A model generated the notes under the pieces. That model was not told the origin of the DNA, ran no database searches, and saw only the letters and a list, made by a program, of their open reading frames with translations. The position numbers were made by a program, and so were the translations under genes. This document shows positions 41,599 to 59,287 of a DNA stretch of 64,000 bases, piece after piece (the stretch's first letter is position 1; each line of letters begins with the position of its first letter). The stretch comes from Xanthobacter sp. NM-59 (lineage in GTDB: Bacteria > Pseudomonadota > Alphaproteobacteria > Rhizobiales > Xanthobacteraceae). Where the stretch lies: assembly GCF_021401125.1 (NCBI RefSeq), contig NZ_JACBFQ010000001.1, positions 682,001 through 746,000 of the forward strand, in the 5' to 3' direction.

Positions 41599-42329
41599 GC
41601 GGCTTCGTCAGCTTTGTCGGCTCGGGGCCTGGCGACCCTGAGCTTCTCACCGTCAAGGCGGTGGACCGCCTGAAGCGTGCGGACGCGGTGCTGTTCGACG
41701 ACCTGTCGGCCGGCCCCATCCTCTCGCTCGCCCGGCCGGGAGCGGACCTGGTGGGCGTGGGCAAGCGCGCCGGCCGCCCCTCCCCGCGCCAGGACCATGT
41801 GAGCCGCCTGCTCGTCGACTATGCCCGCGCCGGTGGCCGGGTGGTGCGGCTGAAATCCGGGGACGGCGGACTGTTCGGCCGGCTGGAGGAAGAGCTGCTG
41901 GCAGTGCGCGCCGCCGGCATCGCCTATGAGATCGTGCCCGGCATTCCCTCGCCCTGCGCGGCGGCGGCGGCCTGCGGCATCCCGCTCACCCGGCGCCTGA
42001 CCGCCCGGCGCGTGCAATTCGTGACCGGACATGACGTGGAGGGCCGCCTGCCCTCGGACATCGACCTGGCCGCCCTGGCCGACCCCGGGGCCTGCACCGT
42101 CGTCTTCATGGGCCAGCGCACCTTTCCCGCTTTGGCCGCGGCACTGATGGCGCGCGGCCTTCCGGCCGATACCCCCACCCTCCTCGCCGAGGCGGTGGGC
42201 ACGCCCGAACAGGCCCTGCACCGCCTCACCGTCGCCGCGCTCGCCGCGCGTCTCGCCGATGCGGTCAGCAGCCGGCCGGCGCTGATCCTCTACGGCCCGC
42301 TGGCCGAGCTGGGGGTGGGCTTTGACTGA
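41595..42329 (+). CDS. cobA: Uroporphyrinogen-III C-methyltransferase
   Basis: A 244-residue SUMT that adds methyl groups at C2 and C7 to make precorrin-2, the branch point from heme to corrin. FVGSGPGDPELLTVKAVDRL at the N-terminus, DDLSAGPILSLA, the VRLKSGDGGLFGRLEEEL block (about 85) and VPGIPSPCAAAAACGIPLT (about 115) fit the family; the typical KSGDP reads KSGDGG. No siroheme oxidase/ferrochelatase domain. Start is GTG 41595 overlapping the cobB stop. Confidence 0.92.
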   Translation: MSGFVSFVGSGPGDPELLTVKAVDRLKRADAVLFDDLSAGPILSLARPGADLVGVGKRAGRPSPRQDHVSRLLVDYARAGGRVVRLKSGDGGLFGRLEEELLAVRAAGIAYEIVPGIPSPCAAAAACGIPLTRRLTARRVQFVTGHDVEGRLPSDIDLAALADPGACTVVFMGQRTFPALAAALMARGLPADTPTLLAEAVGTPEQALHRLTVAALAARLADAVSSRPALILYGPLAELGVGFD

Positions 42330-43059
42330 CCTCTGGCTCATCGGCATCGGCACCGGCAACCCGGCCCACGTCACCCTCGAGGCGCGCCAGGCCCTGTGCG
42401 ATGCCGCCCTGATCCTTCTGCCCCGCAAGGGTCCGGACAAGGCCGACCTCGCCCATCTGCGCCACGCCATCCTCAACCATTGCGGCAGCACCGCGCCGGT
42501 CGCGGAATTCGACATGCCGGTGCGGGACGAAACCTTGCCCTATCAAGAGCGGGTGCGGCGCTGGCATGACGAGATCGCCACCATCTGGAGCCGGACCATC
42601 GCCGCGGCACGCCCCCAGGGGCCCATCGCGCTGATGGTCTGGGGCGACCCCGGGCTTTACGACAGCACCTTGCGCATCGCCGAGCGGCTCGAGCCGCGCC
42701 CGCGCATCCGGGTCGTGCCCGGCATCTCTGCCCTTCAGGCCCTCACCGCCGCCCACGCCATCCCGTTCAACACGGTGAACGGCCCCGTCACGGTCACCAC
42801 CGGCCGCCGCCTGCGCGACCATGGCTGGCCCGACGGCCCCGACACCATCGTGGTGATGCTCGACGGCGAATGCAGCTTCCAGACCCTCGACCCGGGCGGC
42901 CTGCACATCTGGTGGGGCGCCTTCCTCGGCATGCCGGAGCAGGTGCTGGAATCCGGGCCCCTCGCCGAAACCGCCCCCCGCATCATCTCCACCCGCGCCA
43001 CAGCCCGCGCCCAGCACGGCTGGATCATGGACACCTATCTGCTACGGCGCACGGGATAA
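42322..43059 (+). CDS. cobF: Precorrin-6A synthase (deacetylating)
   Basis: A 245-residue methylase that methylates C1 and releases the two-carbon fragment to give precorrin-6A; specific to the aerobic route. LWLIGIGTGNPAHVTLEA at the N-terminus, the PRKGPDKADL block, LMVWGDPGLYDSTLR (about 105) and VPGISALQALTAAHAIP follow CobF. The apparent start is TTG at 42322, inside the end of cobA. Last gene of the long operon; an inverted repeat lies 80 nt downstream. Confidence 0.9.
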   Translation: MTDLWLIGIGTGNPAHVTLEARQALCDAALILLPRKGPDKADLAHLRHAILNHCGSTAPVAEFDMPVRDETLPYQERVRRWHDEIATIWSRTIAAARPQGPIALMVWGDPGLYDSTLRIAERLEPRPRIRVVPGISALQALTAAHAIPFNTVNGPVTVTTGRRLRDHGWPDGPDTIVVMLDGECSFQTLDPGGLHIWWGAFLGMPEQVLESGPLAETAPRIISTRATARAQHGWIMDTYLLRRTG

Positions 43060-43350: not shown

Positions 43351-43426
43351 TGGTGAGCCCGTCGGGATTCGAACCCGAGACCCCATGATTAAAAGTCACG
43401 TGCTCTACCGGCTGAGCTACGGGCTC
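43351..43426 (-). tRNA. tRNA-Lys (TTT), left copy
   Basis: 76-nt cloverleaf on the minus strand starting GAGCCCGTAGCTCAG, anticodon TTT in GACTTTTAATC, T-arm GGTTCGAATCC and encoded CCA. Its upstream (promoter) side lies in the element, so if transcribed it depends on element sequence such as the TTGTAA...TATAGAT stretch at about 43458-43485. Confidence 0.95.
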
Positions 43427-43457
43427 ACTCCCGGCAGTGGTTAGGCCGGGAGTGCCT
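43351..43457. repeat. Left attachment repeat (attL), 107 bp
   Basis: Identical to 54289-54395 base for base. It covers the whole tRNA-Lys gene plus 31 bp upstream of its 5' end, which contain a perfect 9-bp inverted repeat ACTCCCGGC / GCCGGGAGT around a short spacer. Identity stops abruptly on both sides. The crossover point could be in the tRNA or in the inverted repeat. Confidence 0.9.
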
Positions 43458-43537
43458 ATCTATATGTTTTACAAGTATTATTATCGCTCACTCGCATTCA
43501 GCCAGTCATCCGAAATTCACCCCCGTCAGCGATTTGT

Positions 43538-43573
43538 GTTACCCCTATTGTTACCCTACAATCGAGGGGTAAC
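43538..43573. repeat. Left arm-type integrase repeats
   Basis: Two direct GTTACCC copies (43538-43545 as GTTACCCC, 43550-43556) and one inverted copy GGGGTAAC (43566-43573), just before the integrase gene. The same motif recurs in a direct pair near the right end at 54206-54224. This is the expected layout of arm sites bound by the N-terminal domain of a lambda/P4-type integrase. Confidence 0.65.
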
Positions 43574-43596
43574 AGCACTCTCCTGACAAAGCCATC

Positions 43597-44895
43597 ATGA
43601 CCAAGCCACTCACCGTGAAAGGCATCGAGGCACTGAAGCCTGCCGATGACCGCCGTGAAATCCCTGATGGGCTGATGCCCGGCCTTTATCTGATCGTTCA
43701 GCCCTCGGGCGTGATGAGCTGGGCCATTCGCTATCGCCACAATGGCAAGCCGAAGAAACACACGTTGGGCGGCTATCCCGCAATCAAACTCGCCGATGCC
43801 CGCGCACTCGCAGGACAGGCATTGACCGCAGTTGCAGAAGGACACGACCCCAGCGCGGACAAGAAGCAGGCCAAGCGGGATGCTGCCACTGCCATCAAGG
43901 ACGACATTGCCTCTGTGGTTCAAGCATTCTTGGAGCGCTATGCCGAACCCCGGTTGCGTGACAGCTCCTACAGTCAGACGAAACGGTATCTAGAGAAAGA
44001 GGCGGTGGTCGCCTGGAAGGGACGCTCCATCAAATCCATTACCCGCCGTGATGTGATCGAGCTATTGGACGCTACCGTGGACCGGGGTGCCGCCATCAGC
44101 GCCAATCGGCTTCTGGCTGCATTACGCCGGTTCTTCAACTGGTGCGTGGAGCGAGGGATTGTAGACGCCTCACCCGTCGCCGGCCTCAAGGCCCCCACCG
44201 CTGAACAGAGCCGTGATCGAGTTTTGTCGGACGGAGAATTGGCATTGGTCTGGAAAGCGGCTGATGGCTTCGGCTGGCTCTTTGGGCGGTTTGTTCACAT
44301 TCTCATTCTCACCGGCCAGCGGCGAGACGAAGTTGCGGGAATGCGGTGGTCTGAGCTGGACCTGACCAACGCCATCTGGACCATACCGGCTGAGCGCACC
44401 AAAAACGGGATCGCTCATGTCGTGCCCCTTTCCTCTGAAGCCGTCGCCATCTTGTCCGGCCTGCCTCGAAAGAAGGACGGGAACACAGATTCCCCGTTCG
44501 TTTTCACCACCACAGGCAAGACGCCCATTTCCGGCTTCTCCAAGGCCAAGGTGGCTCTGGATAAAGCCATTTCCAAGTTGATGAGGCAGGAGGCTGAGGC
44601 GGCCAGGACGCCCGCCAATGACGCACCGGAACAGGGGGGAGAGGAAGAAGACGCCCCGTCCATCGCCAATTGGCGCCTGCACGATCTGCGCCGCACGATG
44701 GCTTCCGGGATGGCAAGGCTGGGTGTTCCGGTTCATATCGTCGAAAAGCTGCTGAACCACACCAGCGGCACGTTTGCCGGCATCGTGTCCGTCTATCAAA
44801 GGCATGATTTCGCGACGGAGAAGAAAGAGGCAGCGGCAGCTTGGGGGAAGCACATCACAAGTTGTACGACAGAAGGCGACAAAGGAACTGCATAA
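43597..44895 (+). CDS. P4-type tyrosine integrase (DUF4102 arm-binding domain)
   Basis: A 432-residue site-specific recombinase. The N-terminal arm-DNA-binding domain (MTKPLTVKGIEALKPAD, YRHNGKPKKHTLGGYP) is followed by a SAM-like core-binding domain (about 105-190) and the catalytic domain with Arg242 (TGQRRDEV), His362-x-x-Arg365 (HDLRRT), His388 (NHTSG) and the nucleophile Tyr400 (VYQRHDF). All catalytic residues are intact. It lies 170 nt from the tRNA-Lys repeat, directed inward, as in P4-family islands. An acidic, low-complexity insert (about 335-355) precedes box II. Confidence 0.94.
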   Translation: MTKPLTVKGIEALKPADDRREIPDGLMPGLYLIVQPSGVMSWAIRYRHNGKPKKHTLGGYPAIKLADARALAGQALTAVAEGHDPSADKKQAKRDAATAIKDDIASVVQAFLERYAEPRLRDSSYSQTKRYLEKEAVVAWKGRSIKSITRRDVIELLDATVDRGAAISANRLLAALRRFFNWCVERGIVDASPVAGLKAPTAEQSRDRVLSDGELALVWKAADGFGWLFGRFVHILILTGQRRDEVAGMRWSELDLTNAIWTIPAERTKNGIAHVVPLSSEAVAILSGLPRKKDGNTDSPFVFTTTGKTPISGFSKAKVALDKAISKLMRQEAEAARTPANDAPEQGGEEEDAPSIANWRLHDLRRTMASGMARLGVPVHIVEKLLNHTSGTFAGIVSVYQRHDFATEKKEAAAAWGKHITSCTTEGDKGTA

Positions 44896-45540
44896 GACAG
44901 AAATCAAATAAGATATAAATGATAACTATATGATAGGTCGTGTTAAGGCATATGCGACCTGTCAATCCCCGACCATTTGACCTTGCATAAGATAAAAATG
45001 GGTCCCCCCTGAGCCTCGCCAGCCTTAAGGCAAAGGAAGCGGGTGGTAGGCTATCCCTTAGAGAAGAGTATTACCATATTTCACATAAATTATTAGTTGT
45101 TTTCTATTGAGGTTGAAGCGGCCGGCCGAACCTGGATTGGGCATTGAACGGCGATTATCCCTCCAGCCCTTTTCCTCTCCGAGACCACATCCATTCGCAA
45201 GAATGCCGGCCGGATTAGGCTTATCTCATTGATTCAAATCATAAAACTTTATCTTGCCAATGTCCGGTTCTTTCCGATGGATTCAGCGATATTTTCAGAA
45301 TGAGCGCGCGGACAATGTATATTAATAGTATAATCTCCACATAGAACACAAAAATTAAATTATATATCCATATACCGCATAAATGCATTGATTTCACATA
45401 GATTTTATGCGATAATAATTAAATCGTAGTTCGTCGATAATTATATCGGATGACGCGGTGGCACCCCACGACATTGCAGTTGGAGTGTTGAGTTCCTGCC
45501 ATTTTCAGGCGGGATAAATTTAATTCTAAATGGAATAATT
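44896..45540. other. AT-rich non-coding block, possible origin or control region
   Basis: 645 bp without a supported gene, far more AT-rich than the flanking chromosome. Features seen: a hairpin AGGTCG...CGACCT (44935-44960), near-direct repeats of ATAAGATA-x-AAATG at about 44908 and 44992, long A/T runs at 45310-45420, and the two CGAT...ATCG palindromes listed separately. Its place directly before the helicase/primase-like gene is what one expects of an origin and/or promoter-operator region, but iterons are not obvious. Confidence 0.5.
45410..45448. promoter_or_regulatory. Paired CGAT...ATCG palindromes
   Basis: CGATAATAATTAAATCG (45410-45426) and CGATAATTATATCG (45435-45448) share inverted CGAT/ATCG half-sites and lie about 24 bp centre to centre, 90-130 nt before the helicase/primase-like gene. 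Likely binding sites for an element or host regulator, or replication initiator boxes. Confidence 0.45.
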
Positions 45541-48150
45541 ATGAGTATAATAAAATATATTGACGCACCAGCAGGTGCCGGGAAATCGACGTTCATTTAC
45601 AACAACATAGCTGATTTGGCCTCAAATAGAGAGAAGTTCATACTTGCAGTTCCGACAACTGAGTTAGCCAATACGTCAGCCAATAAACTTAAGGAGCTGA
45701 CCAACGGCAGATTCACTGTCACGTTAATTCATGGTGAAGATGGGTCGTCTGGAAATGTCGCCTCTCGAATCATCGCAGCAATGAAGTCATTTCATGCTGA
45801 TTACGGGCAGGTGATAGTGATAACCCACGCGGGATTCGATTGCGTTCCATATTTTCATCGGCCCAATCATTGCAATCTCATATTTGATGAATGCCCGACT
45901 CCCATTGACTTCTTTGAGCTTACTGTTCCTCATAGCCATGAAATTTTAACAAACCATCTTTCAACAGGCGGTGACGGGACATATGTGCACATTTTCTGCA
46001 AGAAAAAGAAAAACTTGGCCGATATCATCGCTAAGGGCAGGAATGATGAGGTGTATGCGCAGTTCAGAGATGTTGCGGTCAAAATCACCTCTCTCGGCTG
46101 GGATACCATGGTGAAGGCGGACAGCTACGAGGCACTGCTTTCCGGAAAATCCACCACGGATACCCTTCATGTTCACGCTGTTCGGAACGCTCGCATTCTT
46201 GGGAGTTTCAAGAGCTGCACAATCATAAGCGCCCGCTTCAAGGAAAGTATATTATTTCACACGATGCAAAATTATGGGGTTACATTTGAACCACACCCCG
46301 TTCCGGACGGCTCATTTGAATATTTAGAGCATCAGAATGGACATCTTCTGACTATTCACTACCCAGATATCAAGCGTATATCTAAGAATATAATGAATAA
46401 TAACCCGTCACTTGTGAAAAATATCAAGGACTATTCTATATCTTTGTTCGCTTCAAATAAATTTATTTTTCTTTCTAATAAAGGAATGAGCCATATCGAC
46501 TTGATAATGGCGGGAGGTATTGAGCTAAGCGGCTGCCCTCATGGGTCCAATAATTACAGGCATATCCATAATTCTCTTATATTTCCTGCCTACAATCTCA
46601 ATCCGGAACAAACCAAATTCCTTGAATATCTTGGTCTGGATGGACCTCAGATTGAGGTCGGCATCCATTGTCATGGCATATATCAGGCGTTCATGCGCTG
46701 CTCTGTACGAGATGGAAATTCCAAGGAACCAAAGCACCTGATTGTTCCTGACAAAAGGACCGCCGATTGGCTGCTGGAGGTTTTCCCCGGATCGACGCTG
46801 AAGCTCATTCCAACGGCCAAGGCAGACGCAACCCTGGGCAAGTCTGGGCGCCCTCAGAAATACGAAAGCAATGCCAAGCGGCAGAAGGCATATCGGGACA
46901 GGAAGAAGGCTGAGAAGGCCGCCGCCAAGTTGGCACCTGAAAGTGACCGCCAACAATTAGCCAATGCCGACCGTTACAAAACCTCTATAGAGTCTATTAA
47001 TAGTTTCGTAACGATTCAAGAACATATGTTAAATGGAAATCAAATGAAAACTAATATTTCTTCTAATGTCCATATATTTACAGGTGCTGAGAACAATAAT
47101 TCGCATATTATATCTGGCGATGTCCAGGCTTTCTCAAGTTCAGACTTCGTTGTAACTAGAGGTATATGTGAAGACATTGAGGCTCGTGAGCCACTTAGGA
47201 GAGAATCATTTGAATTCAGAGCGGTTATGAACTTCTATTCACGACTTGATACGTTTGGTTCAGATGGAGTAATAGCGTTTGATTCGATTGACGAAATAGT
47301 TGATACATTTCGAGGAACATTTGACATTTACTACGAGAAGCCAAGCGGGCCTGGGTTTTTTAATTTCACAAAATTTGCATGTAATCCGTCAGAATCCAAA
47401 AGACAGGAGGATGCCCTATCCTCCCGTGTCATGATCCTTGATAACGATGGCGGTGGTATAAGCCATAAGAAGTTTGTAAATATATTATCCAGTGAGAAAA
47501 TTCTTATCTGCAACACAAGAAATTCAACTGCGAATAACCCAAGATGGCGTGCTATTATTTTCCTATCAGACGAAGTTTCGGTGTCTAATTATTGCTGTCT
47601 CTTTGACGGGATTATGGGGGAGCTGGCAAGGCATGGCTACACACTTGCTAAGGCAGACCCCAAGAAGCCCTACTCAAAGGCCCATGGTTTCGATACGTCC
47701 AAGCGCAACATCAACGCTATTTTTCGCCTACCCTGCCAAGCCTATGAGGAAGGAGGCAGCTTCTTCCATGACTATGTTGGCGACGATCGCCAACTGATGG
47801 ACGTTAAGGCGTGGATTGCAAAGGCGCCCGTGCCCAGGGCGCCTCAACCTGCAGAAGGACAGCAAGTCCTCCAGATGACGGAATGGCTCACGGAGCTACC
47901 GGAGGCGGTGAAAAGGGCTATTGCGGATTATGAGACTGAAGGCATCCAGCCGAAGAATGGAAACTATGCCCTCTTTAAGCTCGGCTGTGTAGCCGCTGGC
48001 GCTGGAATGCCGGAAGCCCAGGTGAGGGAGTTGTTAGAAGCGGAAGCGCGAAAAGCCAACACACCAAAGGATCGCCTGAGGCAGATTCCTTGGATCATTC
48101 AATCACTCAAGGGATATGGGGCATTCACGTCAAAGCACTGGCGCCACTGA
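45541..48150 (+). CDS. Helicase-like P-loop protein fused to primase-like domain (putative replication protein)
   Basis: 869 residues. The N-terminal part (1 to about 380) is helicase-like: Walker A DAPAGAGKST (about 8-17), VITHAGFD, Walker B LIFDECP (about 117-123) and TIISARFKES. A basic linker GRPQKYESNAKRQKAYRDRK (about 435-455) probably binds DNA. The C-terminal part carries a pattern seen in primase-polymerase-like replication proteins: VMILDNDGGGIS (about 630), ICNTRNSTANNPRWRAIIFLS (about 655-675) and a helical PriCT-like tail. I infer a replication protein of the element. Codon and base use are AT-rich compared with the host. ATG 45541 follows TGGAATAATT without a strong ribosome binding site. 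No transposase or relaxase motif. Confidence 0.7.
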   Translation: MSIIKYIDAPAGAGKSTFIYNNIADLASNREKFILAVPTTELANTSANKLKELTNGRFTVTLIHGEDGSSGNVASRIIAAMKSFHADYGQVIVITHAGFDCVPYFHRPNHCNLIFDECPTPIDFFELTVPHSHEILTNHLSTGGDGTYVHIFCKKKKNLADIIAKGRNDEVYAQFRDVAVKITSLGWDTMVKADSYEALLSGKSTTDTLHVHAVRNARILGSFKSCTIISARFKESILFHTMQNYGVTFEPHPVPDGSFEYLEHQNGHLLTIHYPDIKRISKNIMNNNPSLVKNIKDYSISLFASNKFIFLSNKGMSHIDLIMAGGIELSGCPHGSNNYRHIHNSLIFPAYNLNPEQTKFLEYLGLDGPQIEVGIHCHGIYQAFMRCSVRDGNSKEPKHLIVPDKRTADWLLEVFPGSTLKLIPTAKADATLGKSGRPQKYESNAKRQKAYRDRKKAEKAAAKLAPESDRQQLANADRYKTSIESINSFVTIQEHMLNGNQMKTNISSNVHIFTGAENNNSHIISGDVQAFSSSDFVVTRGICEDIEAREPLRRESFEFRAVMNFYSRLDTFGSDGVIAFDSIDEIVDTFRGTFDIYYEKPSGPGFFNFTKFACNPSESKRQEDALSSRVMILDNDGGGISHKKFVNILSSEKILICNTRNSTANNPRWRAIIFLSDEVSVSNYCCLFDGIMGELARHGYTLAKADPKKPYSKAHGFDTSKRNINAIFRLPCQAYEEGGSFFHDYVGDDRQLMDVKAWIAKAPVPRAPQPAEGQQVLQMTEWLTELPEAVKRAIADYETEGIQPKNGNYALFKLGCVAAGAGMPEAQVRELLEAEARKANTPKDRLRQIPWIIQSLKGYGAFTSKHWRH

Positions 48151-48157
48151 GGCGGTG

Positions 48158-48198
48158 GCAGCCTCTCCATTGCCCCTTCAGATGCTTGGGGAGGCTGC
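48158..48198 (+). terminator. Hairpin after the helicase/primase-like gene
   Basis: GCAGCCTCTCC (48158-48168) pairs with GGGGAGGCTGC (48188-48198) with one G-T wobble, 8 nt after the stop codon. No T-tract. A smaller hairpin AGGCGG...CCGCCT follows at 48211-48225. It separates the plus-strand gene from the convergent minus-strand cargo. Confidence 0.45.
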
Positions 48199-48384
48199 GC
48201 AGCGATAGTGAGGCGGGTTCCGCCTGATCTCCCAATGCCCCTTGTCGCCGGCCCTGTGCGGCGGCCCCCTCTGTCTCCTGTCACCAGCTTCGGCAGGGAT
48301 GTTCAGGCGCCCTCTCCCTGTCCCTTGTCACCATTCTATCGGCGCCAAGGGCACCCCGCCATGCGAGGCAATATATCGTCAAAA

Positions 48385-49332
48385 TCATTGTTCAAATAGG
48401 TAGTCCCATCCAAGTTTTTTCACCACAAATTCCTTTGTGTCTTCACACCATTTCCGTTTAGAGGGCGCATTATTAAATTCATTGTTTCGCCTTATCGATG
48501 CTCTATTCAAAGCGTCAGTGGCACTGCGGCCTGAGCCGAACATGAGTTGCCACGTCCCCTGATAGAGTTTGTAATGAAGCCTCAATTCACGTAAGTTAAT
48601 TTGAAAATATGAAGTGCATGTTAGGTTGATTTTTTCAAGCCAAATTATAGACGATGCAAGTTGATTTGCTATATCTCTGTCATTTAGACCATCGTCTGAG
48701 AGATTTTTCATGTATCTTGAGGAAAATCTCTGAATCTCATCCGGCCCAATATCGCCATCCGATAATTTGAAGCTAGTGTTATTTGATATATTATTTTTTA
48801 TTTTCGCACTTGTAACGCAATCGAAAAAATTATTGATTGCATCATCTGCTCCATTAAGATTAAAAGATACTATATGTTTCCCGGCCGGATCAAATACAGA
48901 AACAAATTTTCCAACTTTCATGTATGACGCGATATCAGAAATTTCATATTTCCCATCGAAATCGTATATATAACTGTCGCTCAAGGATTTTCCTTTTAAT
49001 ATCATCGTTATTGGCTTAGGTGTACTTCCAGATGCGGATGAATATGGTGTAAACAATAATCCAAATGACATATTTCTAGATTCGTTGCGCCAATCTGGAT
49101 TGAACACCTCCAGGAATGTGTCGTTATTTTCAATGTAATTGTTGATTCTGAACGTTGTACCACCGGTGTTGGACTCTATAGCGCAAAATAGGCGATCCCC
49201 GTTAATGTTATTGTAGAGCGTTGCGGCCCAATTTCCCGTCTTAATTTCGTTGATTAACTTAAACTCGGCGCTATGTGCAAGGCTTTGGCCCAATGCCAGC
49301 CATGTTATAAGAGAAAGCGTGTACCTGAGCAT
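48385..49332 (-). CDS. Exported protein of unknown function (island cargo)
   Basis: 315 residues with a signal peptide (MLRYTLSLITWLALGQSLAHSA, cleavage near 22). The first 170 residues of the mature protein end in FNLNGADDAINNFFDCV, a motif also found at the C-terminus of two other cargo proteins (51512 and 52284), suggesting a shared beta-rich fold similar in outline to IalB-type periplasmic proteins. A second, helical region of about 130 residues follows (DGDIGPDEIQRFSSRYMK...) with no family I recognise. ATG 49332 is preferred because GAGGGG precedes it; ATG 49347 is also possible. Last gene of the minus-strand cargo run. Confidence 0.72.
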   Translation of the reverse strand: MLRYTLSLITWLALGQSLAHSAEFKLINEIKTGNWAATLYNNINGDRLFCAIESNTGGTTFRINNYIENNDTFLEVFNPDWRNESRNMSFGLLFTPYSSASGSTPKPITMILKGKSLSDSYIYDFDGKYEISDIASYMKVGKFVSVFDPAGKHIVSFNLNGADDAINNFFDCVTSAKIKNNISNNTSFKLSDGDIGPDEIQRFSSRYMKNLSDDGLNDRDIANQLASSIIWLEKINLTCTSYFQINLRELRLHYKLYQGTWQLMFGSGRSATDALNRASIRRNNEFNNAPSKRKWCEDTKEFVVKKLGWDYLFEQ

Positions 49333-49347
49333 GCCCCCACCCCTCAT

Positions 49348-49965
49348 TTATCGCCCGATCAACTTCGCGACGCATGATATCTTTTGACGCTGTGTGTTGT
49401 CATTTGACATACATTTTACGAATTTCGAATTCGGATTATTATCTATTACTTTTTCGATTAATTTTGTTCCATTCCAAGTGAGCGATACAATACAGGTCGC
49501 TTCTCGCTTTCCAAGGCAAGGCTTAAGCTCGCCTCTCGACTGGAACACGATTGTTGCCGGCTTATTCTTGTCCTCCGGGAAGCCAACAACTCCAGAAGCG
49601 GTGCGTTGATATATGCGTGTAAGCTGCCCCCCAGCATGATCTGAGAACACAAAGAACTCACAGCCATCTGTGCTGCAGGCACCATTGCCGCGATCTCGAT
49701 AGCCACACAGATCACCGGGTTGAAATAAAATAATATTACGGCCGCGTTCATTATTTCCTATATTTTCTATAGTAGCTGTATCGTGGTTAAGGTCGTAGCC
49801 CATATCATTACAATAATTAAGAACGGAGTTTGCGATTTCTTTTGCCTCTTCTGGAAGCTCATTTAATGTTCCAGACTGAGCTAACGCATGATGTTTCACC
49901 AGGACACTGCTCGCCAGCAGCGTAGCCGAGACGACAGCGATGCTTCTAAAAAAATGCCCAGCCAT
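49348..49965 (-). CDS. Exported cysteine-rich protein, unknown function (island cargo)
   Basis: 205 residues with an N-terminal signal sequence (SIAVVSATLLASSVLVKHHALA, cleavage near 29-30). The mature part contains eight cysteines, including CGYRDRGNGACSTDGCEFF, compatible with periplasmic disulfides. No family recognised. Stop is directly adjacent to the start of the next cargo gene, so they are co-transcribed. Low GC compared with the chromosome. Confidence 0.7.
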   Translation of the reverse strand: MAGHFFRSIAVVSATLLASSVLVKHHALAQSGTLNELPEEAKEIANSVLNYCNDMGYDLNHDTATIENIGNNERGRNIILFQPGDLCGYRDRGNGACSTDGCEFFVFSDHAGGQLTRIYQRTASGVVGFPEDKNKPATIVFQSRGELKPCLGKREATCIVSLTWNGTKLIEKVIDNNPNSKFVKCMSNDNTQRQKISCVAKLIGR

Positions 49966-49993
49966 CTTACGTGATCCCTGATTGCAGAGTGGG

Positions 49994-50437
49994 TTAGCGC
50001 CTTATTTTAGATAGCTCATCGGCTCTTAACTTCGTTTCTATCGCAATGCATAGCGGATAATCCCAAATCTCGGCCACCTTATCAACACCGTCTTCGGGCT
50101 CACACTTCGTATCGCGAAATTTGATCCATGCACGTTGAGCTTCACGCAGATGTTTTTGGGCACTTGGCGATAGGCGAGCCATGGCATCATGGTAAACCAT
50201 ATTGAGCCGGACATCCTGCCTATCAAGCTCGCCCACAAGACAAGTTCGACTCTGAGACGCTGACCTCGCCTCCGCGATACACTCATCAAATTTCGGGCTC
50301 AGCTCAGAGGTCCGCCCTGGAAGACTTGAGATCGCGAACAAGCCACAGGCAATACCTAGCGCCACCGTCGCCCTTGCAAATCGAATGGCATTAGCCGCCA
50401 TGTATGCAAGAAATGTAATTAATATGTATTTATGCAT
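49994..50437 (-). CDS. LprI/DUF1311-family exported protein (island cargo)
   Basis: 147 residues: hydrophobic export signal in the first 45 and a DUF1311 (LprI) domain from about 50. Diagnostic pattern: FDECIAEARSASQSRTCLVGELDRQD, LNMVYHDAMARLS, LREAQRAWIKFRDTKCE and a late LCIAIETKLRADEL with four conserved cysteines. LprI of Mycobacterium tuberculosis inhibits lysozyme, but most members are uncharacterised periplasmic proteins. The start could be ATG 50437 or ATG 50401; neither has a strong ribosome binding site. Confidence 0.75.
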   Translation of the reverse strand: MHKYILITFLAYMAANAIRFARATVALGIACGLFAISSLPGRTSELSPKFDECIAEARSASQSRTCLVGELDRQDVRLNMVYHDAMARLSPSAQKHLREAQRAWIKFRDTKCEPEDGVDKVAEIWDYPLCIAIETKLRADELSKIRR

Positions 50438-50485
50438 ACGAGTGTAACCTATTAATAAATCGATAAATTTATCATCTACATAAGT

Positions 50486-50878
50486 TCATTTACGACATTT
50501 TATATGGCGTGAACCATCGATGTATAATATATTTCCTCCTCTTGTTGACAGCTTAAAAACATGTTTCGTCATATCTTTTTTTTCTTCAACATTTTCCCAA
50601 AATTCATAACAACTCGATGAGGCAATGATGTTGTCACCTTCCTTTTTTACCGTATCAATTAGGCAATGATTTTCATATTGATCGATGACGGATTCCAATC
50701 TGTCGCCGATCAAAACACCAAACTCGATATTCGTGATAGAGTTTGGCCCCTCTCTATCATCGCAGTCTTTCATTGAAGTCGCCCATATTCCCTCCCACGC
50801 CTCACCCGCGCGCGCAGGTTCCAGACTTCCGCAAATTGATAGAAGCACACTAATGCCAAACGCAGTTGCTTTGTTCAT
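50486..50878 (-). CDS. Small exported protein, unknown function (island cargo)
   Basis: 130 residues with signal peptide MNKATAFGISVLLSICGSLEPARA (cleavage near 24). Mature sequence begins GEAWEGIWATSMKDC and contains five cysteines; it resembles small extracytoplasmic beta-barrel-like proteins (lead W-G-x-W) but no family is assigned. The frame extends upstream to 50995, where it would overlap the next gene; ATG 50878 gives a normal signal peptide. Confidence 0.65.
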   Translation of the reverse strand: MNKATAFGISVLLSICGSLEPARAGEAWEGIWATSMKDCDDREGPNSITNIEFGVLIGDRLESVIDQYENHCLIDTVKKEGDNIIASSSCYEFWENVEEKKDMTKHVFKLSTRGGNILYIDGSRHIKCRK

Positions 50879-50978
50879 TGTCTTTTTCTTCGCTCGGTAA
50901 CAGCGCTGCCAAATGGCAGAGCCGGTTATGATTCGGGAGATCGCGTTGGGCTTTTCAATCTCCCTTGGGGTGGCCACA

Positions 50979-51164
50979 TTATAGGATATCGACAACGCGG
51001 TCGACGGAATCGACCGCCCTCACACGGCAACCCGGATTGGCCTGAGCGACTGACTTCATCGCGTTGAGGATGTCGGCGGGCAGGTTCTGGGTCACGATCA
51101 CCGTAGACCAGTTGCCCGTCTTGTTCTGAAACTGCACCTGCACCTGTTCGTAGCCGCTCGCCAT
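50979..51164 (-). CDS. Small protein of 61 residues (island cargo)
   Basis: A 61-residue protein starting MASGYEQVQVQFQNKTGNWST, without signal peptide or membrane segment, ending RAVDSVDRVVDIL. ATG 51164 has AAGGGG 9 nt upstream; a TTG at 51182 is in frame. It is the only cargo product that appears cytoplasmic, so a regulatory or immunity-like role is possible but unsupported. GC content is higher than that of its neighbours. Confidence 0.6.
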   Translation of the reverse strand: MASGYEQVQVQFQNKTGNWSTVIVTQNLPADILNAMKSVAQANPGCRVRAVDSVDRVVDIL

Positions 51165-51197
51165 GTCATCTATCCCCTTCAAGCAGGCCCACCGCTC

Positions 51198-51497
51198 TCA
51201 GCAATTATACCAGTGGACGCGTATCCACCCTGGCTTCATGCCGGGCGCACCCATTTCCCGTATGTTGAGACTTATGGTCGTGGTCACCGCGCTTTGGGAT
51301 GGCGGGTTGGCATATTCAACATACCAAATGCCGTCCTCCTCCCAGACGCCATAGACCTCGACGTTTCCAATGCCATGCGCTACCACGCAAAGGTGGCGGG
51401 CTTCCGCCATTCGTTCGCTCGCTCCGCCCGCGTTCACCTGACTGGAAATGATGATGAGTGAGGCGGTGGTGAGAGCTGCCAAAGCCATTCGTTTCAT
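51198..51497 (-). CDS. Small exported protein, unknown function (island cargo)
   Basis: 99 residues with signal peptide MKRMALAALTTASLIIISSQVNAGG (cleavage near 23-25). The mature 75 residues contain a His/Cys pair and a C-terminal WIRVHWYNC. No family recognised. ATG 51497 is preferred to an upstream in-frame ATG at 51533, which would overlap the preceding gene. Spacing of 14 nt to the preceding gene suggests an operon. Confidence 0.65.
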   Translation of the reverse strand: MKRMALAALTTASLIIISSQVNAGGASERMAEARHLCVVAHGIGNVEVYGVWEEDGIWYVEYANPPSQSAVTTTISLNIREMGAPGMKPGWIRVHWYNC

Positions 51498-51511
51498 AGC
51501 TACACCCGTTC

Positions 51512-52192
51512 TCACCGGCCAGCTTCCAGGCACTCATCAAAATCAGAATCTAATATATCCATTGCACCGCTAAGATCGAACTCCACGGTGTGCCCCTTTA
51601 TGTCGAAACTAATCCAAATCCTCTCGGTTGGCGGTGGCTCACCTTTAATCTTAGCAGCATATCGCCCTACGATAAGCATTTGATATACGCCAAATTTACT
51701 GAAAAAATCCTCAATTCCAATTTCATTCTGGCCGGTTGCATGCGCATTAAAGCCATACGGCTGCTGAGCAGTGGCACCATCCGGAGCGATCACATCTATC
51801 GTCGCAGAAACCCTGAAATTAGGACTATCATCGCCGTAATTTCTAAAATTCCATACTGGACTTGCTGCAAGTAGGTGAAATTTGTCGGCATTATCAATGC
51901 CCTTGAATATCGTTGTGACATCGCCGTTTTTATTTTTTTGGACGAGGAAACAAACATCTGTTCCATCAGGAACGGTTAGACCAATTATTCCGAACTGCGT
52001 ATCTTCTATTTTCTTTCGAAAGAAGGCTTTTTTCGATTCGATAATTGCACTATTGCCCAAAACGCCTGTTAAATCACCAACAATAACACCATCACGTGAT
52101 AACAAGACCGCGCCTATGGCAGCGCCTATCACGAGGGATGCCAAAATCGCGACCATTTTGTTTGACCTGTTGCCCTGACCATTTTCGGACAT
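51512..52192 (-). CDS. Membrane-anchored periplasmic protein, paralogue of the next gene (island cargo)
   Basis: 226 residues: a short cytoplasmic tail, one transmembrane anchor (MVAILASLVIGAAIGAVLL, about 13-31) and a periplasmic domain. That domain matches the protein encoded at 52284-52880 by eye: FF-x-K-x-x-E-x-TQ, PDG, NGD, ASPVWNFRNYGDDS against SSPRWNFGSYGRSS, and a C-terminal FDLSGAMD...DEC against FSLSGYQR...VEC. Function unknown. ATG 52192 has AGGA 9 nt before it. Confidence 0.7.
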   Translation of the reverse strand: MSENGQGNRSNKMVAILASLVIGAAIGAVLLSRDGVIVGDLTGVLGNSAIIESKKAFFRKKIEDTQFGIIGLTVPDGTDVCFLVQKNKNGDVTTIFKGIDNADKFHLLAASPVWNFRNYGDDSPNFRVSATIDVIAPDGATAQQPYGFNAHATGQNEIGIEDFFSKFGVYQMLIVGRYAAKIKGEPPPTERIWISFDIKGHTVEFDLSGAMDILDSDFDECLEAGR

Positions 52193-52283
52193 GACAATCA
52201 TCCTAATTCGGGGAGCATTTGGAACGCATCCTGCTTTGGCCGTGAAGCCCGCCGGTTATGCATCTAAGGGGTGTGGTGGGGGG

Positions 52284-52880
52284 CTATTTGCTGGCACTAT
52301 TCATGCATTCGACCAATATCGGCTGCACTCTCTGATATCCTGAGAGACTAAAAACCGCACTGTAACCGTCTGCGGTTATCACAATATCCGGACCGGCCCC
52401 GCTTGAAATGTATTCAATAAATCCATGTCCTGCAAAAACACTATACAGATCCGGCAATCTTGCTGCCTTACGCTCAAAGTCGTTGATAATTATCATCGTG
52501 TTGCTGATGGGATATGCGTCAATTTGAAAGCTCTTTTCGTCACTCTCATTCGGGGACGCGCGGAAGGACACCGTAACGTCAAGCTTCCGGCTGGAGCGGC
52601 CGTAGCTTCCGAAATTCCACCTCGGAGAAGACGCATCCACTTCCAAAGCGCTTCCTTTTGATGTGCCGTTTGCCAGAACGATAATGTCCCCATTATCCAG
52701 CTTCTTCAGGACATCACAGCGCTTCTGCCGACCGTCAGGCGTGGCGCCAATGACGATCCATTGTGTTCCTTCTACCCGTTTGTTGAAGAAAAATGTTTCA
52801 ATTTCAGGGGTAGCTGCCGATGCATTACCAGCGGCGAAAAAGACAATGAAAGCTGCGAATGCATATTTGAGCGCGCTCAT
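52284..52880 (-). CDS. Exported protein, paralogue of the preceding cargo gene
   Basis: 198 residues with signal peptide MSALKYAFAAFIVFFAAGNASA (cleavage near 22). The mature domain is paralogous to that at 51512-52192, sharing the WNF-x-x-YG core and the C-terminal F-x-LSG...EC motif. The pair probably arose by duplication inside the island, one copy keeping a cleavable signal and the other a membrane anchor. Function unknown; the outline resembles IalB-like extracytoplasmic domains. Confidence 0.72.
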   Translation of the reverse strand: MSALKYAFAAFIVFFAAGNASAATPEIETFFFNKRVEGTQWIVIGATPDGRQKRCDVLKKLDNGDIIVLANGTSKGSALEVDASSPRWNFGSYGRSSRKLDVTVSFRASPNESDEKSFQIDAYPISNTMIIINDFERKAARLPDLYSVFAGHGFIEYISSGAGPDIVITADGYSAVFSLSGYQRVQPILVECMNSASK

Positions 52881-53058
52881 GCCCCAACCTCATTATGTAA
52901 TTATGAGCTGATATTGTTATCTATAGGTAGGCAGAATCCACGAATTCCGTTTTACATCGCGCAATCAGCTATCAGATGTTGGCAGAATAAACGTGGATGC
53001 ATGGAGCTGGCCCGACGCTCACAGGGCATTGTCTTGGAGATCGGGCCGGCTTGGGGTC

Positions 53059-53709
53059 TTAGTCTTTACGATTGGCGGGGTTGGCCCATTCCATGAACCC
53101 CTTGGCCGCCTTGTCGGCGGCCGCGTCGCCTGGAGGCTTGGTGCTAAACGGGTTGGCGGGCTGTTGCGCTTTGATCGGCTGGATAGGCGCAGGAGTGGCG
53201 GTGTCCGTCGCCGGCTGCGAAGGGCGAGCATAGCGGCTGTTATCGTCCTGGGGCGGCTGCGCGCGGAGCGTGGTGCTCTGCTGGACTGGGGGAGACCGAG
53301 GAACGTCCGCCGTTGCTTCTGGCCCATAGCCATACTTGTTGTCGTCAGGATCGGACGGCTTCGCCCACCAGATGATGAGAAGGATGAGACCCACCCCCGT
53401 CAGTGCGATGAGCTGCCACCAACCGCTTTTGCCAATGTCATGAAGCCGGCGGCTTCCAGTGGAAAATACAGCGATGCAGCTTGCGACGCTAAATATAGAT
53501 TTAGACAATATATATATTATCGCTAGCAGTCGTCCTAATTCGGGCTGACGCATGACGGCGGAATGAAAACTATTTTCTCCAACGACTTGAGACGCCCATC
53601 CGAACATGGTGAGCGCGAGATAAAACCACCAGAATTCAGATCGAGAAGCTCGCCCACTGAACGTGCCGAACTTCGACATGCACGTTTTGATTGCGGTTTG
53701 GAAATCCAT
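53059..53709 (-). CDS. DUF805-family membrane protein with long proline-rich tail (island cargo)
   Basis: 216 residues. The N-terminal 120 form a DUF805 domain: FGTFSGRASRSEFWWFYL, hydrophobic helices, RRLHDIGKSGWWQLI, and SDPDDNKYGYGPE. A cytoplasmic or periplasmic low-complexity Pro/Gln/Ala/Thr-rich tail of about 95 residues follows, ending in AAKGFMEWANPANRKD. DUF805 proteins are small inner-membrane proteins of unknown function. ATG 53709 gives the family start. It is the first gene of the minus-strand cargo run; 178 nt separate it from the next gene. Confidence 0.8.
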   Translation of the reverse strand: MDFQTAIKTCMSKFGTFSGRASRSEFWWFYLALTMFGWASQVVGENSFHSAVMRQPELGRLLAIIYILSKSIFSVASCIAVFSTGSRRLHDIGKSGWWQLIALTGVGLILLIIWWAKPSDPDDNKYGYGPEATADVPRSPPVQQSTTLRAQPPQDDNSRYARPSQPATDTATPAPIQPIKAQQPANPFSTKPPGDAAADKAAKGFMEWANPANRKD

Positions 53710-54288
53710 CGCGTTCCCCAGCACCCAGGCAAACGCAGATAGCGGTGCGCCCCCGCTATGCGTTGCTCATTGCCCACTTGGTGATCGGGGAGTTGGAAAA
53801 CCGAACGAATACGGTCCCTGTGGCCTTTAGTTCGGAGAACCTGTTGCATACGCCACAGGCTCCCCGACCATAGGGTCAAGGAGTTCGGCGCCATTCCGGC
53901 TGGCACCCATACCGATTCGTTGGGGTTTCCACGCCCCAGAGCGCTGCGTGACGCTCCAACTGCAATCTTAGGGCAGGGGCCGTGTTCTGTCGCGGCAAAA
54001 ATCTGACTGAGATACCGCAGTGCGGCAGCGTTGCATTCTCGCGTCCGTGATCGGCCGCAATCAGATCAAATAAACAGATTTAATATGTTGATAATGATTC
54101 AAGGCCACGTGGGCTGAGTCCGATCAGGGCTCCCATGGCCATCACATGAAGAGTCGGCAGTGGGGGTCAGCTACCCAACGTGAACCACCCTACCAAGCGA
54201 CCAACGTTACCCTAATGTTACCCCATACAGAGATGCAGCTTAGCCATTCGCCGCAAATTTTGAAAAGATGTTATAAATCATGGACTTA
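53710..54288. other. Right end of the element, non-coding
   Basis: About 580 bp between the DUF805 gene and the right tRNA-Lys copy. It contains an 8-bp inverted repeat CCTGTGGC / GCCACAGG (53817-53859), an AT-rich patch at 54060-54110 and the right arm-type repeats. No gene is supported. It likely serves as the attP right arm and the cargo promoter region. Confidence 0.5.
54206..54224. repeat. Right arm-type integrase repeats
   Basis: GTTACCC at 54206-54212 and GTTACCCC at 54217-54224, direct copies 11 bp apart, matching the motif and nearly the spacing (12 bp) of the left set at 43538-43556. Confidence 0.65.
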
Positions 54289-54364
54289 TGGTGAGCCCGT
54301 CGGGATTCGAACCCGAGACCCCATGATTAAAAGTCACGTGCTCTACCGGCTGAGCTACGGGCTC
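54289..54364 (-). tRNA. tRNA-Lys (TTT), right copy
   Basis: Identical 76-nt tRNA-Lys on the minus strand. Its upstream side (54396 onward) is chromosomal, so this copy most likely keeps the original promoter, and the element (or its integration) supplied the sequence to its left. Confidence 0.95.
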
Positions 54365-54395
54365 ACTCCCGGCAGTGGTTAGGCCGGGAGTGCCT
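54289..54395. repeat. Right attachment repeat (attR), 107 bp
   Basis: Exact copy of 43351-43457, including the full tRNA-Lys gene and the adjoining 31 bp with the 9-bp inverted repeat. Chromosomal GC-rich sequence resumes immediately at 54396. Confidence 0.9.
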
Positions 54396-54524
54396 CGGGG
54401 TCAAGGCCGACGGGGCACGCGCGTTCATTCCTGCTTCGCAGCCTGTGAACATCGCCTCGTGCGTTGACCCCGCGCATTCGCATGCGCACCATGGCGCCTT
54501 AGCGTTTCGGGGCCAGGGATCCGC

Positions 54525-55703
54525 ATGCCGCTCAACAACAGCATCGCTGCGCGCGTTGAAGACATCGTTCAATGGCGCAGGCACCTTCATCGCCATCCGG
54601 AGCTCGAATACGACCTGCCGGAAACCAGCCGCTTCGTCGCCGAAAAGCTCCGCGCCTTCGGCTGCGACGAGGTGGTGACGGGAATCGGCGGCACTGGCTT
54701 GGTGGCGGTCATCCGGGGCCAGAACGCGGGGTCTCGCACCATCGGCCTGCGCGCCGACATGGACGCCTTGCCGGTGTGGGAGGAAACGGGCGCGGAGCAT
54801 GCCTCGCTCACCCCCGGCCGCATGCATGCCTGCGGCCATGATGGCCACACCGCCATGCTGCTGGGCGCCGCCCGCCAGCTGGCGGAAACCCGCGCCTTCA
54901 GCGGCACCGCCATCTTGATCTTCCAGCCCGCGGAGGAGGCCGGCGCCGGCGCCAAGGCGATGATTGACGACGGTCTGTTCCAGCGCTTTCCCGTGGATGA
55001 GGTCTACAGCCTCCATAATCTGCCCGGCCTGCCCGTTGGTACCTTCGCGGTGCGCGAGGGGCCGATCATGGCATCCGCTGATCGCATCGAGATCGAGGTC
55101 CTGGGCAGCGGCGCCCATGCGGCGCGGCCCCATGAGGGGGTGGATGTGGTGCTGACCGGCGCCGCCATCGTCACCGCGCTGCAGCAGGTCAGCGCCCGCA
55201 ATGTGGACCCGCAGAAGTCGGCGGTGGTGTCCATCTGCGTGTTCCAGGCGGGCGAGGTGGACAATGTGCTGCCGCCCTCCGCCCGCCTCATCGGCACGGC
55301 GCGCACGCTGGCCCCCGATGTCCGCGCCCGCGTGAAGGAGAGGGTGCGCGCCATCGCCGAAGGTGTGGCGGCGGCTCATGGCGCCACGGTGCGGGTGAAT
55401 TTCCCGGAGGGCTACCCCGTCACCCGCAACCACCCCGCCCAGGCCGCCTTCGCGGCTGAGGTGGCGCGCGAGGTGTGTGGCGCGCACGCCGTAAACGCCG
55501 CGGCCGAGCCCATCATGGCGGCGGAGGACTTCGCCTACATGCTGGAGGAGAAGCCCGGCGCGTACCTGTTCATCGGCAATGGCCCTTCCCAGGGCCTGCA
55601 CCACCCGGCCTACGACTTTGCCGATGACGCCATTGCCTATGGTTCCTCATTCTGGGTGCGGCTGGTGGAGCGCGCGCTGCCCGCGTCGCCCTCGGCGACC
55701 TGA
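54525..55703 (+). CDS. M20-family amidohydrolase (hippurate hydrolase-like)
   Basis: A 392-residue metallopeptidase of the M20D amidohydrolase group, hydrolysing N-acyl amino acids, hippurate or indole-3-acetyl conjugates in the cytoplasm. Motifs: WRRHLHRHPELEYDLPET at the N-terminus, GLRADMDALPVWEETG (about 80), HACGHDGHTAMLLGAA (about 106), FQPAEEAGAGAKAMI (about 137) and the late PIMAAEDFAYMLEEKPGAY with the metal-binding Glu. The dimerisation lid domain lies between. ATG 54525 is 130 nt from the island boundary. Substrate not determinable. Confidence 0.9.
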   Translation: MPLNNSIAARVEDIVQWRRHLHRHPELEYDLPETSRFVAEKLRAFGCDEVVTGIGGTGLVAVIRGQNAGSRTIGLRADMDALPVWEETGAEHASLTPGRMHACGHDGHTAMLLGAARQLAETRAFSGTAILIFQPAEEAGAGAKAMIDDGLFQRFPVDEVYSLHNLPGLPVGTFAVREGPIMASADRIEIEVLGSGAHAARPHEGVDVVLTGAAIVTALQQVSARNVDPQKSAVVSICVFQAGEVDNVLPPSARLIGTARTLAPDVRARVKERVRAIAEGVAAAHGATVRVNFPEGYPVTRNHPAQAAFAAEVAREVCGAHAVNAAAEPIMAAEDFAYMLEEKPGAYLFIGNGPSQGLHHPAYDFADDAIAYGSSFWVRLVERALPASPSAT

Positions 55704-56263
55704 GGCGAGCGAAGTCGGCAAGCGATAGGGAGCCGCTCGAAGTCTGAGAGACTTCTCAGTTGTCCGACCCAGCATTGTACCAGCAAAGGACAGAACTCCC
55801 TGCCTTGCGGAAATAACGCATGCGCCTGCGGTCGACTTGGCTTATCGTTAACGTCGCGGAGGTTCAGCAACGCAGGGAGGGTCCCATGTCCACATTGTCC
55901 GCGCGCGAGGTCATTCGCACGGCTGCGATTACCACCATGCTCTGCGCTATGGGGATCAGCTGGATTCTTCAGTAACTCTTGTGCGTCGCACCATTGGCGC
56001 CGCACAAAAATCCTCCGGCTCTGTCGGCGATGACCTACATTCAAGCCTGACGGCCCTGTCGCCAGGGGGCGTGCGTTTATCGGCGCAGCTCCGGCGGCCC
56101 CTCCCCTTCACCCTGCCCCAGTCTGATGGATCGATTCAGCGCCATCCGGCGTGCTGCCACGCTCGCGTCTGGCCATCGATTTGCATCATCGCCGCGCGCG
56201 GAGAGGCGCCAAACCAGCAGATCGCCCGGCATCGGGCTGAGAAGCAAGGCGAAGGATCTGACT
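55704..56263. other. Intergenic with one candidate microprotein
   Basis: About 560 bp between the amidohydrolase gene and the small gene at 56264. Apart from the 29-codon frame listed separately, no gene, RNA or repeat is recognised. Confidence 0.4.
55886..55975 (+). CDS. Candidate 29-residue membrane microprotein
   Basis: MSTLSAREVIRTAAITTMLC followed by AMGISWILQ: a short polar N-terminus and a hydrophobic helix. It has a strong GGGAGG site 7 nt before the ATG and stands alone in a 560-bp gap. Too short for family assignment; it could be a real small membrane protein or chance. Confidence 0.4.
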   Translation: MSTLSAREVIRTAAITTMLCAMGISWILQ

Positions 56264-56455
56264 ATGGCAGACTACAAGGTGACTGTGGACCAACTTCCCA
56301 CCGGGAAGTGGGCGTGTTTCCTCCATGTGGATGGTCATGACGAGCCCATCAACCTGGGCCGCGAGTTCAAGAACGACGAACAGGCGGAAAACTGGCTGAA
56401 CGTCTCTGAATCCGTGACCGCGATCGAGATGATGCTGCGCAAGGTCAAGAAATAA
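56264..56455 (+). CDS. Small conserved-type cytoplasmic protein, unknown function
   Basis: 63 residues: ADYKVTVDQLPTGKWACFL, an acidic middle (GREFKNDEQAENWLNV) and a basic C-terminus (MLRKVKK). The ATG at 56264 follows GAAGGA at good spacing. The compact alternation of strand and helix suggests a small folded domain. I do not recognise the family. It is convergent with the cupin-like gene at 56645. Confidence 0.6.
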   Translation: MADYKVTVDQLPTGKWACFLHVDGHDEPINLGREFKNDEQAENWLNVSESVTAIEMMLRKVKK

Positions 56456-56644
56456 GGCCCTTCGGGTGGGCCCAGCGCCCACCCCCCTCACCGGCCCCAA
56501 GGCGGCGAGGGCCAGCGGATTGGCTCGGCGCGCGGCAGGGGCGCTCCGGCAGGATCGGCCGAAGGTCAGCGGCCGGTCCTTTGTCGGAAACCTCGGCCGC
56601 GGCCGTGTTGGATGTCGGACACCGGACGCGCGGGCAGCGGCCCC

Positions 56645-57217: not shown

Positions 57218-57229
57218 GGTGAAATCCCT

Positions 57230-57913: not shown

Positions 57914-57994
57914 GGTTCTCCCCGTGGCGCAGCCGGCCCCCCGGCTTTATGGGGGACCCCAGGCAACATCCTTGCCAGCGCCGCCGCGCGCGCC

Positions 57995-58183: not shown

Positions 58184-58275
58184 TGCAGGGCTCCTTCCAT
58201 TGGTGGCGAAGCCCTTGCAATGGGCGTGCCTGCGCGGCCGGGCGCAGTCCACGGCGACCCGGCCACGCGACAGCA

Positions 58276-59097: not shown

Positions 59098-59287
59098 GGA
59101 TGAAACGTCCAGACAAAGGGAGGGTGGCGAGCCCCCGATGAAATGCTGCGCCGCGAGGAAGCGTCACAGATTTGCTGACGTTTGGCCACTCGCGCGCGCC
59201 GCCTGTTTTGCCCCAGAAGCCTTTTCAGCTCCGCCGGGACGGGGCATCATAGCCCTGTTTTCTTTGCATATTGGCGAGATTTTTCGA

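Follow-up and report, generated by a model that had tools for sequence, protein, structure and literature searches.

Islands in tRNA genes ordinarily carry half of a tRNA, with which they repair the gene that they split. This half-tRNA repair is the usual account of how an essential tRNA survives integration and of how islands switch targets. P4-like satellites are about 11 kb long, target a tRNA, and encode a tyrosine integrase with the Arm-DNA-bind_3 domain and a replication protein with helicase and primase-like parts. Here we describe a 10.9-kb region of Xanthobacter sp. NM-59 that has a complete tRNA-Lys(UUU) gene at each end. It lies in a stretch of 64,000 nucleotides, which we call the window, and all coordinates without another label refer to it. 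We think it quite probable that this region is an integrative element in tRNA-Lys(UUU) whose own attachment site (attP) has captured the whole host tRNA.

Among described systems, the tRNA islands collected by Islander come closest. In the available portion of the source, Islander has 3919 islands, 3760 with a 3' fragment of the tRNA and 159 with a 5' fragment, and it rejects matches inside a known full-length tRNA (PMC4383910). Like those islands, the element has a tyrosine integrase, tRNA sequence at both ends, and a complete tRNA at the native-promoter side. Its direct repeats overlap the tRNA gene, and one complete tRNA stands on the native 5' flank. Unlike those islands, whose displaced copy is a fragment, the element has a displaced copy that is complete and bears a 31-bp leader. 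Because both copies are complete, the Islander filter, as that portion of PMC4383910 presents it, should discard this element.

In the tRNA-dependent lysogeny of mycobacteriophages, attP and the chromosomal site (attB) share about 10 bp, the tRNA is not rebuilt, and a separate phage tRNA complements the loss (PMC10865867, from the portion available). The element would likewise bring a complete tRNA of the isotype that it enters, and there too it is tRNA-Lys(UUU). In contrast, the attachment site here is formed by the complete tRNA, and the native gene is intact: instead of a short core that breaks the tRNA, there is a 107-bp repeat with an intact tRNA at both ends. The pTN3-like archaeal 5'-half integrases are comparable to a related element in another genome (G011, described below), which supplies upstream DNA and, as we read it, the 5' half of the tRNA; the accessible part of a review describes this as seldom encountered in bacteria (PMC8371274). 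As judged from the same part, the window element differs in that its integrase gene is not split and has no attachment site inside it, and in that it would supply both halves. Tycheposons are also tyrosine-recombinase elements bordered by tRNA genes (PMC10872708, in the excerpt available). In an excerpt of PMC3119063, archaeal integrases lie next to a complete tRNA and the more distant copy is truncated, unlike the two complete copies here. We recognised no precedent for an island with two complete tRNAs in the literature searched, including the available portions of PMC3146451, PMC11476347, and PMC9580842, and we do not claim that none is in print. The element appears to work like a tRNA-targeted integrative island, minus the classical half-tRNA signature.

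Two complete tRNA-Lys copies and the native right flank

The element is bounded by a direct repeat of 107 nt that is 100% identical between 43351-43457 and 54289-54395 (spacing 10,938), and chance cannot explain an exact repeat of this length. According to ARAGORN, each repeat holds a complete tRNA-Lys(TTT) on the minus strand (43351-43426 and 54289-54364). Both copies score 73 bits against the Rfam tRNA model, whose gathering score is 29. An earlier note on this DNA had already pointed to identical repeats with an intact tRNA-Lys in each, and the repeat comparison, ARAGORN, and Rfam bear it out; what the note did not recognise is that a complete tRNA at each end is unusual for an island. Across the genome (4.96 Mb in 36 contigs), the repeat matched the two element ends and, at 75%, one other site, which is a tRNA-Thr. 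No further tRNA-Lys(UUU) was found in this genome. The G+C content (GC) is 0.487 within the element, as against 0.716 in the 10 kb to its left and 0.666 to its right, which is the sharp drop in composition that the note had described. Farther afield on the left, GC is 0.638-0.742 per kb across 21001-43000 (17 of 22 kb are above 0.69) and 0.602-0.704 across 1-21000. An intact tyrosine integrase gene lies beside one end of the element and outside the repeat. The tRNA-Lys copies read leftward, so their 5' flanks are on the right:

43351..43426, minus strand: left (integrase-side) complete tRNA-Lys(UUU), from ARAGORN, the repeat, and Rfam
43427..43457, minus strand: duplicated 31-bp tRNA leader with a copy of CTAACC (43439-43444) and without CTTGAC, from the alignment
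54289..54364, minus strand: right complete tRNA-Lys(UUU), joined to the native 5' flank, from ARAGORN, the repeat, and the flank in relatives
54365..54395, minus strand: native leader with CTAACC (54377-54382), the putative -10 box, and the end of the repeat, from the alignment
54400..54405, minus strand: CTTGAC, the putative native -35 box, just beyond the repeat, from 12 of 12 genus relatives aligned by eye

On its 5' side, the right tRNA-Lys adjoins an amidohydrolase gene (54525-55703). We searched 13 relatives from the genus, of which 12 have the site, and in 10 of the 12 this right flank, with the amidohydrolase, adjoins tRNA-Lys(UUU). Upstream of the tRNA, CTTGAC and CTAACC are separated by 17 nt in the right copy and in all 12 of the genus relatives aligned (by eye). 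Because these upstream boxes and the neighbouring amidohydrolase recur in relatives, we identify the right copy, on sequence comparison, as the native gene. The conservation, position, and spacing of the two boxes suggest that they are its promoter. A hairpin in the leader was first taken for a recombination site; the conserved upstream pattern suggests a promoter instead.

The repeat takes in CTAACC and ends just short of CTTGAC, so at the left copy the tRNA body is complete but the upstream box is missing. The right copy is presumably the working tRNA gene. The left copy, which lacks the native CTTGAC box, is probably weak or silent. Promoter scans reported one sigma-70-like site on the tRNA strand at the left copy (0.4 expected) and two sites, one of them on the tRNA strand, in the G011 element (0.3 expected); we draw no claim from the scans of the left copy, the right copy, or G011. 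Over the 30 nt before the tRNA, the left and right copies agree at 30/30 positions, as against 24/30 for the nearest species and 9-22/30 for 11 other Xanthobacter. It follows that the left leader probably stems from the present host lineage, and it would have been copied recently or kept homogenised. We infer that the element brought the 5' half and 31-bp leader of the left copy and that the 3' half of that copy is chromosomal.

That the AT-rich interval is an integrated element is well supported, because a related 11.6-kb element is present in G011, motif pairs mark the ends, and relatives have a single tRNA-Lys or other islands at this site. Such islands occupy the same tRNA-Lys in two genus relatives (G004 and G007) and in more distant genomes (G022, G040, and G059). 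All five have a half-tRNA of 45-50 bp (in G022, 47 bp at 89%) on the integrase side and the complete tRNA on the native 5' side. The earlier note had named two findings in relatives as contrary to an element, namely two tRNA-Lys copies without the interior, or conserved synteny of the interior; neither appeared.

The left flank is variable. Its cob genes (40270-43059) were found in none of 20 stretches to the left of the site in relatives (12 from the genus and 8 others; 19-20 kb each, 6 kb for G010). Close homologues of the left-flank cobF (82-84%) are found elsewhere in 3 of the 13 genus relatives (G005, G010, and G013), and the other ten have weak matches of 25-27% only. The G013 contig ends inside its cobF homologue and the G005 contig ends 20 bp or less away, which may mark a repeat or a mobile boundary. 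About 14 kb to the left of the tRNA-Lys in G013 (L040 1-5286) is a homologue of 56160-61353 in inverted order, so the neighbourhood is rearranged there. The absence of the cob genes from those 20 stretches and the rearrangement in G013 would fit a plain chromosomal duplication or rearrangement of the tRNA, in which case the AT-rich region would not be mobile. We consider this very improbable, given the integrase at the expected position, the motif pairs at both ends, the related G011 element, which shares genes with this one and occupies a different tRNA, and the other islands that G004 and G007 have in this tRNA-Lys.

Attachment cores and arm motifs in the integrase clade

To compare attachment (att) cores, we assembled 17 islands with a related integrase and a resolved tRNA att pair. 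Our main survey of 43 loci, 5 of them without a detectable integrase, gave 13 tRNA-linked repeat pairs; the others are G009 and 3 of 7 further integrase loci. In 14 islands the core is ordinary: it covers the 3' half only and is 45-56 bp long (with mismatches in L052, which has just 19 bp exact within a 47-bp match at 89%). The 13 of these 14 that were positioned begin at tRNA position 23-33 and end at, or slightly past, the 3' end. The remaining three have extended cores: 107 bp in the window, 73 bp in G009, and, reaching the 5' end of the tRNA, 57 bp in G011. Their integrases form one clade (100/100) whose sister is ordinary (98/93; the bootstrap of this tree is not fully settled). If exceptions were placed at random, the probability of all three landing on one given trio among 17 is 1/680. 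Since the three integrases share ancestry, the extended cores are one evolutionary change and not three independent ones.

The remaining loci in the survey, including L163-L167 with closer integrases, showed no repeat linked to a tRNA in the sequence retrieved, and L174 has a 40-bp repeat without a tRNA call. As a control, we used 14 other integrase loci from the genus (7 from NM-59 itself). These gave 2 ordinary pairs, both in NM-59, which we left out of the 17. Islands L229 and L230 of NM-59 (C34 and C35) have ordinary pairs in tRNA-Met (54 bp) and tRNA-Ser (60 bp). In control loci L237-L240 the layout is different, a complete tRNA preceding the integrase, and two of these loci have repeats. 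Repeats are also present at L228 and L236, but no tRNA.

The G011 element (11,563 bp; C1:1109973-1121535) sits in tRNA-Arg(CCU). Its integrase matches that of the window element at 66% and its helicase-primase at 34% over 872 aligned columns; the two elements also have in common an LprI protein (51%), a DUF805 protein (37.5%), and a protein of 111 amino acids (aa) in the window (47% over 72 residues). A complete tRNA-Arg(CCU) is on the integrase side, and the far end matches tRNA positions 1-57 only. ARAGORN calls a tRNA at the far end, but its predicted fold lacks a closed acceptor stem and CCA. Comparison with the matching region of G009 places the native 5' flank at the far end of the G011 element. 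The DNA upstream of the one intact tRNA-Arg(CCU) that was found in G011 is therefore element DNA. The 5' half of this tRNA would be supplied by the element as well. At its far end, the G011 element encodes a ParE toxin (L096 19543-19851).

G009 is X. aminoxidans ATCC BAA-299, also of the genus Xanthobacter. Its sister integrase (71%) is beside a copy of tRNA-Lys(CTT) with 73 bp identical to the native gene and a broken acceptor end, and the intact tRNA-Lys(CTT) is on another contig. The far end has an antitoxin-like open reading frame (ORF), identified by eye (L202 ~6106-6384). No toxin-antitoxin gene was recognised in the window element. In G001, a relative of the element that has apparently decayed lies next to tRNA-Lys(CTT) (L223 ~9500-16400), with a dip in GC, a helicase-primase homologue split in two ORFs, and an arm-type motif near the tRNA; no integrase was detected there.

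Matches to the window integrase in named genomes came from 8 loci (71% in X. aminoxidans, 26-32% in the others). Distant matches came from 6 viral contigs (26-35%) and 9 plasmid records (31-42%), and 17 phage records matched, with 32-35% for the 10 listed. A search around G664 (15 genomes), which hosts the ordinary sister integrase, turned up no new close integrase.

Just inside both ends of the window element are pairs of a 7-bp motif that are probably arm-type sites of the integrase:

43538..43573, plus strand: putative P'-arm sites, GTTACCC-N5-GTTACCC (43538-43556) and an inverted GGGTAAC (43567-43573)
54206..54223, plus strand: putative P-arm sites, GTTACCC-N4-GTTACCC

Within the window, the GTTACCC pair is found at the two element ends only; it is also found in 27 of 240 loci of the integrase survey, many of which overlap. 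Relative to the anticodon, the motifs of the window element are at -124/-113 and +146/+158. Those of two ordinary islands are at -126/-114 and +151 (L161) and at -128 and +140/+151 (L162), and in G011 and G009 they are at nearly the same distances. Because the arm distances are nearly equal in L161 and L162, the 5' half of the tRNA seems to replace spacer without shifting the arms. The part common to the positioned cores is tRNA positions 33-57, so the shared crossover would be in or just 3' of the anticodon loop.

The motifs would also be in register if an ordinary island with an ordinary attP had entered the tRNA and its left half-tRNA had later been lengthened by gene conversion, with the right copy as donor and the common 3' half as anchor. 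The identity of the copies at 107/107 positions, including the lineage-specific leader, is as expected from such a conversion. But extended cores are also present, in other tRNAs, with the two integrases most closely related to this one (73 bp in G009 and 57 bp in G011), as against 0 of the 14 more distant islands, and a property of the clade is likelier than three independent accidents within it. We therefore think that conversion of an ordinary island is rather unlikely.

Gene content and resemblance to phage satellites

The genes of the element, in order, are:

43597..44895, plus strand: tyrosine integrase, 432 aa, intact open frame (Arm-DNA-bind_3, 2.3e-20; Phage_integrase, 1.1e-18)
45541..48150, plus strand: 869-aa replication protein, with a superfamily 2 (SF2; DinG/XPD-like) helicase as its N half and a primase-like C half
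48385..49347, minus strand: 320-aa protein, no family, apparent signal peptide (by eye)
49348..49965, minus strand: 205-aa protein, no family, apparent signal peptide (by eye)
49994..50437, minus strand: LprI-family protein (PF07007, 1.7e-15), with a homologue in the G011 element (51%)
50486..50995, minus strand: 169-aa ORF, with an internal start followed by an apparent signal peptide (by eye)
50979..51182, minus strand: 67-aa ORF, no family (Pfam only)
51198..51533, minus strand: 111-aa protein, apparent signal peptide (by eye), with a homologue in the G011 element (47% over 72 residues)
51512..52201, minus strand: 229-aa protein with an N-terminal hydrophobic segment, a paralogue of the 198-aa protein (31% over 122 residues)
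52284..52880, minus strand: 198-aa protein, apparent signal peptide (by eye), a paralogue of the 229-aa protein
53059..53724, minus strand: DUF805 protein (6.6e-23), with a homologue in the G011 element (37.5%)

The small proteins of the element are probably secreted, to judge by their sequences. A model of the 229-aa cargo protein has a predicted local distance difference test (pLDDT) score of 51 and no PDB match at E <= 0.001, and we claim no fold for it. The defence-system library gave weak matches only, the best of them (E 1.7e-4) to a helicase.

The earlier note had called the integrase P4-type. The intact 432-aa frame and the two domains stand, and no library names it P4-type. The note had also missed the replication gene at 45541-48150, so that the interior is not as featureless as it had seemed. 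In the replication protein, the primase-like reading of the C half leans on homologues and fold matches; the PDB matches cover residues 1-427. The protein matched 197 phage records, of which the 20 listed align with the N half only (24-26%), and one plasmid record (22%). It has no relatives in the named-genome contigs or viral contigs searched.

As the note had said, no phage structural or conjugation genes are apparent: no capsid, packaging, or conjugation family was recognised among the window ORFs scanned, and the 169-aa ORF has one weak match to a 'tail protein' family (E 0.052). The element is like P4-like satellites in its size, integrase domains, tRNA target, and the parts of its replication protein. 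It differs from them in that the helicase precedes the primase, in that the libraries name no P4 alpha family, and in that no capsid-sizing, AlpA, cos-related, or phage-regulatory genes were recognised among the ORFs scanned (short ORFs were not scanned). So the element resembles phage satellites in size and in its replication gene, which stops short of membership in the P4-like group. It is probably a phage-satellite-like replicon that would need a helper for transfer. The note's suggestion of a satellite or an otherwise mobilised island is plausible as far as non-autonomy goes; no helper or transfer route has come to light.

The element could instead be an integrative and mobilizable element moved by a conjugative helper, which would agree with the lack of any recognised capsid, packaging, or phage-regulatory gene other than the weak 'tail' match. 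But no relaxase was recognised among the ORFs scanned either (origin-of-transfer sites were not searched), and the size and the helicase-primase that matches phage proteins are more like satellites, so we doubt this alternative.

Probable capture of the host tRNA and its possible consequences

If attP has captured the whole tRNA, integration would be an ordinary tyrosine-integrase reaction: attP would be flanked by arm sites, and the crossover would fall in the anticodon region. The attP would hold the complete target tRNA and 31 bp of the host promoter region, whereas ordinary relatives hold the 3' half only. Integration would then leave two complete tRNA genes, the right one on native upstream sequence. 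The left copy's 5' half and leader would come from attP, with the 5' half of the tRNA occupying the spacer and the arm sites unmoved. Capture could have occurred by aberrant excision that took the whole host tRNA into the circle, or by one-sided gene conversion while the element was integrated. The distribution within the clade points to a property of the elements themselves; the leader's exact match to the host lineage and the in-register spacing suggest that conversion would suit as well. The two routes are not separable with one genome per species.

Several observations weigh against capture. The three extended cores differ in extent (107, 73, and 57 bp) and so do not show one captured state passed on without change. 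The G009 pair is split over two contigs and its pairing is our reconstruction. No helicase-primase match was found in the G009 genome at 1e-10, so the content of its element may differ, nor was one found in G664; shared gene content is seen for G011 only. The GTTACCC motif is absent from the other 11 positioned ordinary islands, which leaves L161 and L162 as the ordinary members in the comparison of spacing. The consensus promoter scan flags no site at the right copy (0 versus 0.1 expected), so the native promoter rests on conservation. Primase families match the 869-aa protein itself weakly (E 0.015 and 0.055), and no excisionase was recognisable (ORFs of 25-60 aa in two gaps were listed only). 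The source species is represented by one strain. Finally, the earlier note had proposed a search for an empty tRNA-Lys site joining both flanks. The right flank behaved as proposed; no empty site joining both was found in relatives, and because the left side is variable, an exact one could not be shown.

We offer, more tentatively and with some doubt, a broader reading for the clade: its rule of tRNA repair may have changed, so that attP captures the whole host tRNA gene and part of its promoter region, and the functional gene could then be at one end or at both. The intact tRNA is at both ends in the window, at the native end only in G009, and at the element-fused end only in G011, where expression of the host tRNA should depend on element DNA. 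An attP with a whole tRNA and part of the promoter region would be a concrete, testable intermediate. Because the three sister elements sit in three different tRNAs, whole-gene capture could be a route to new tRNA targets.

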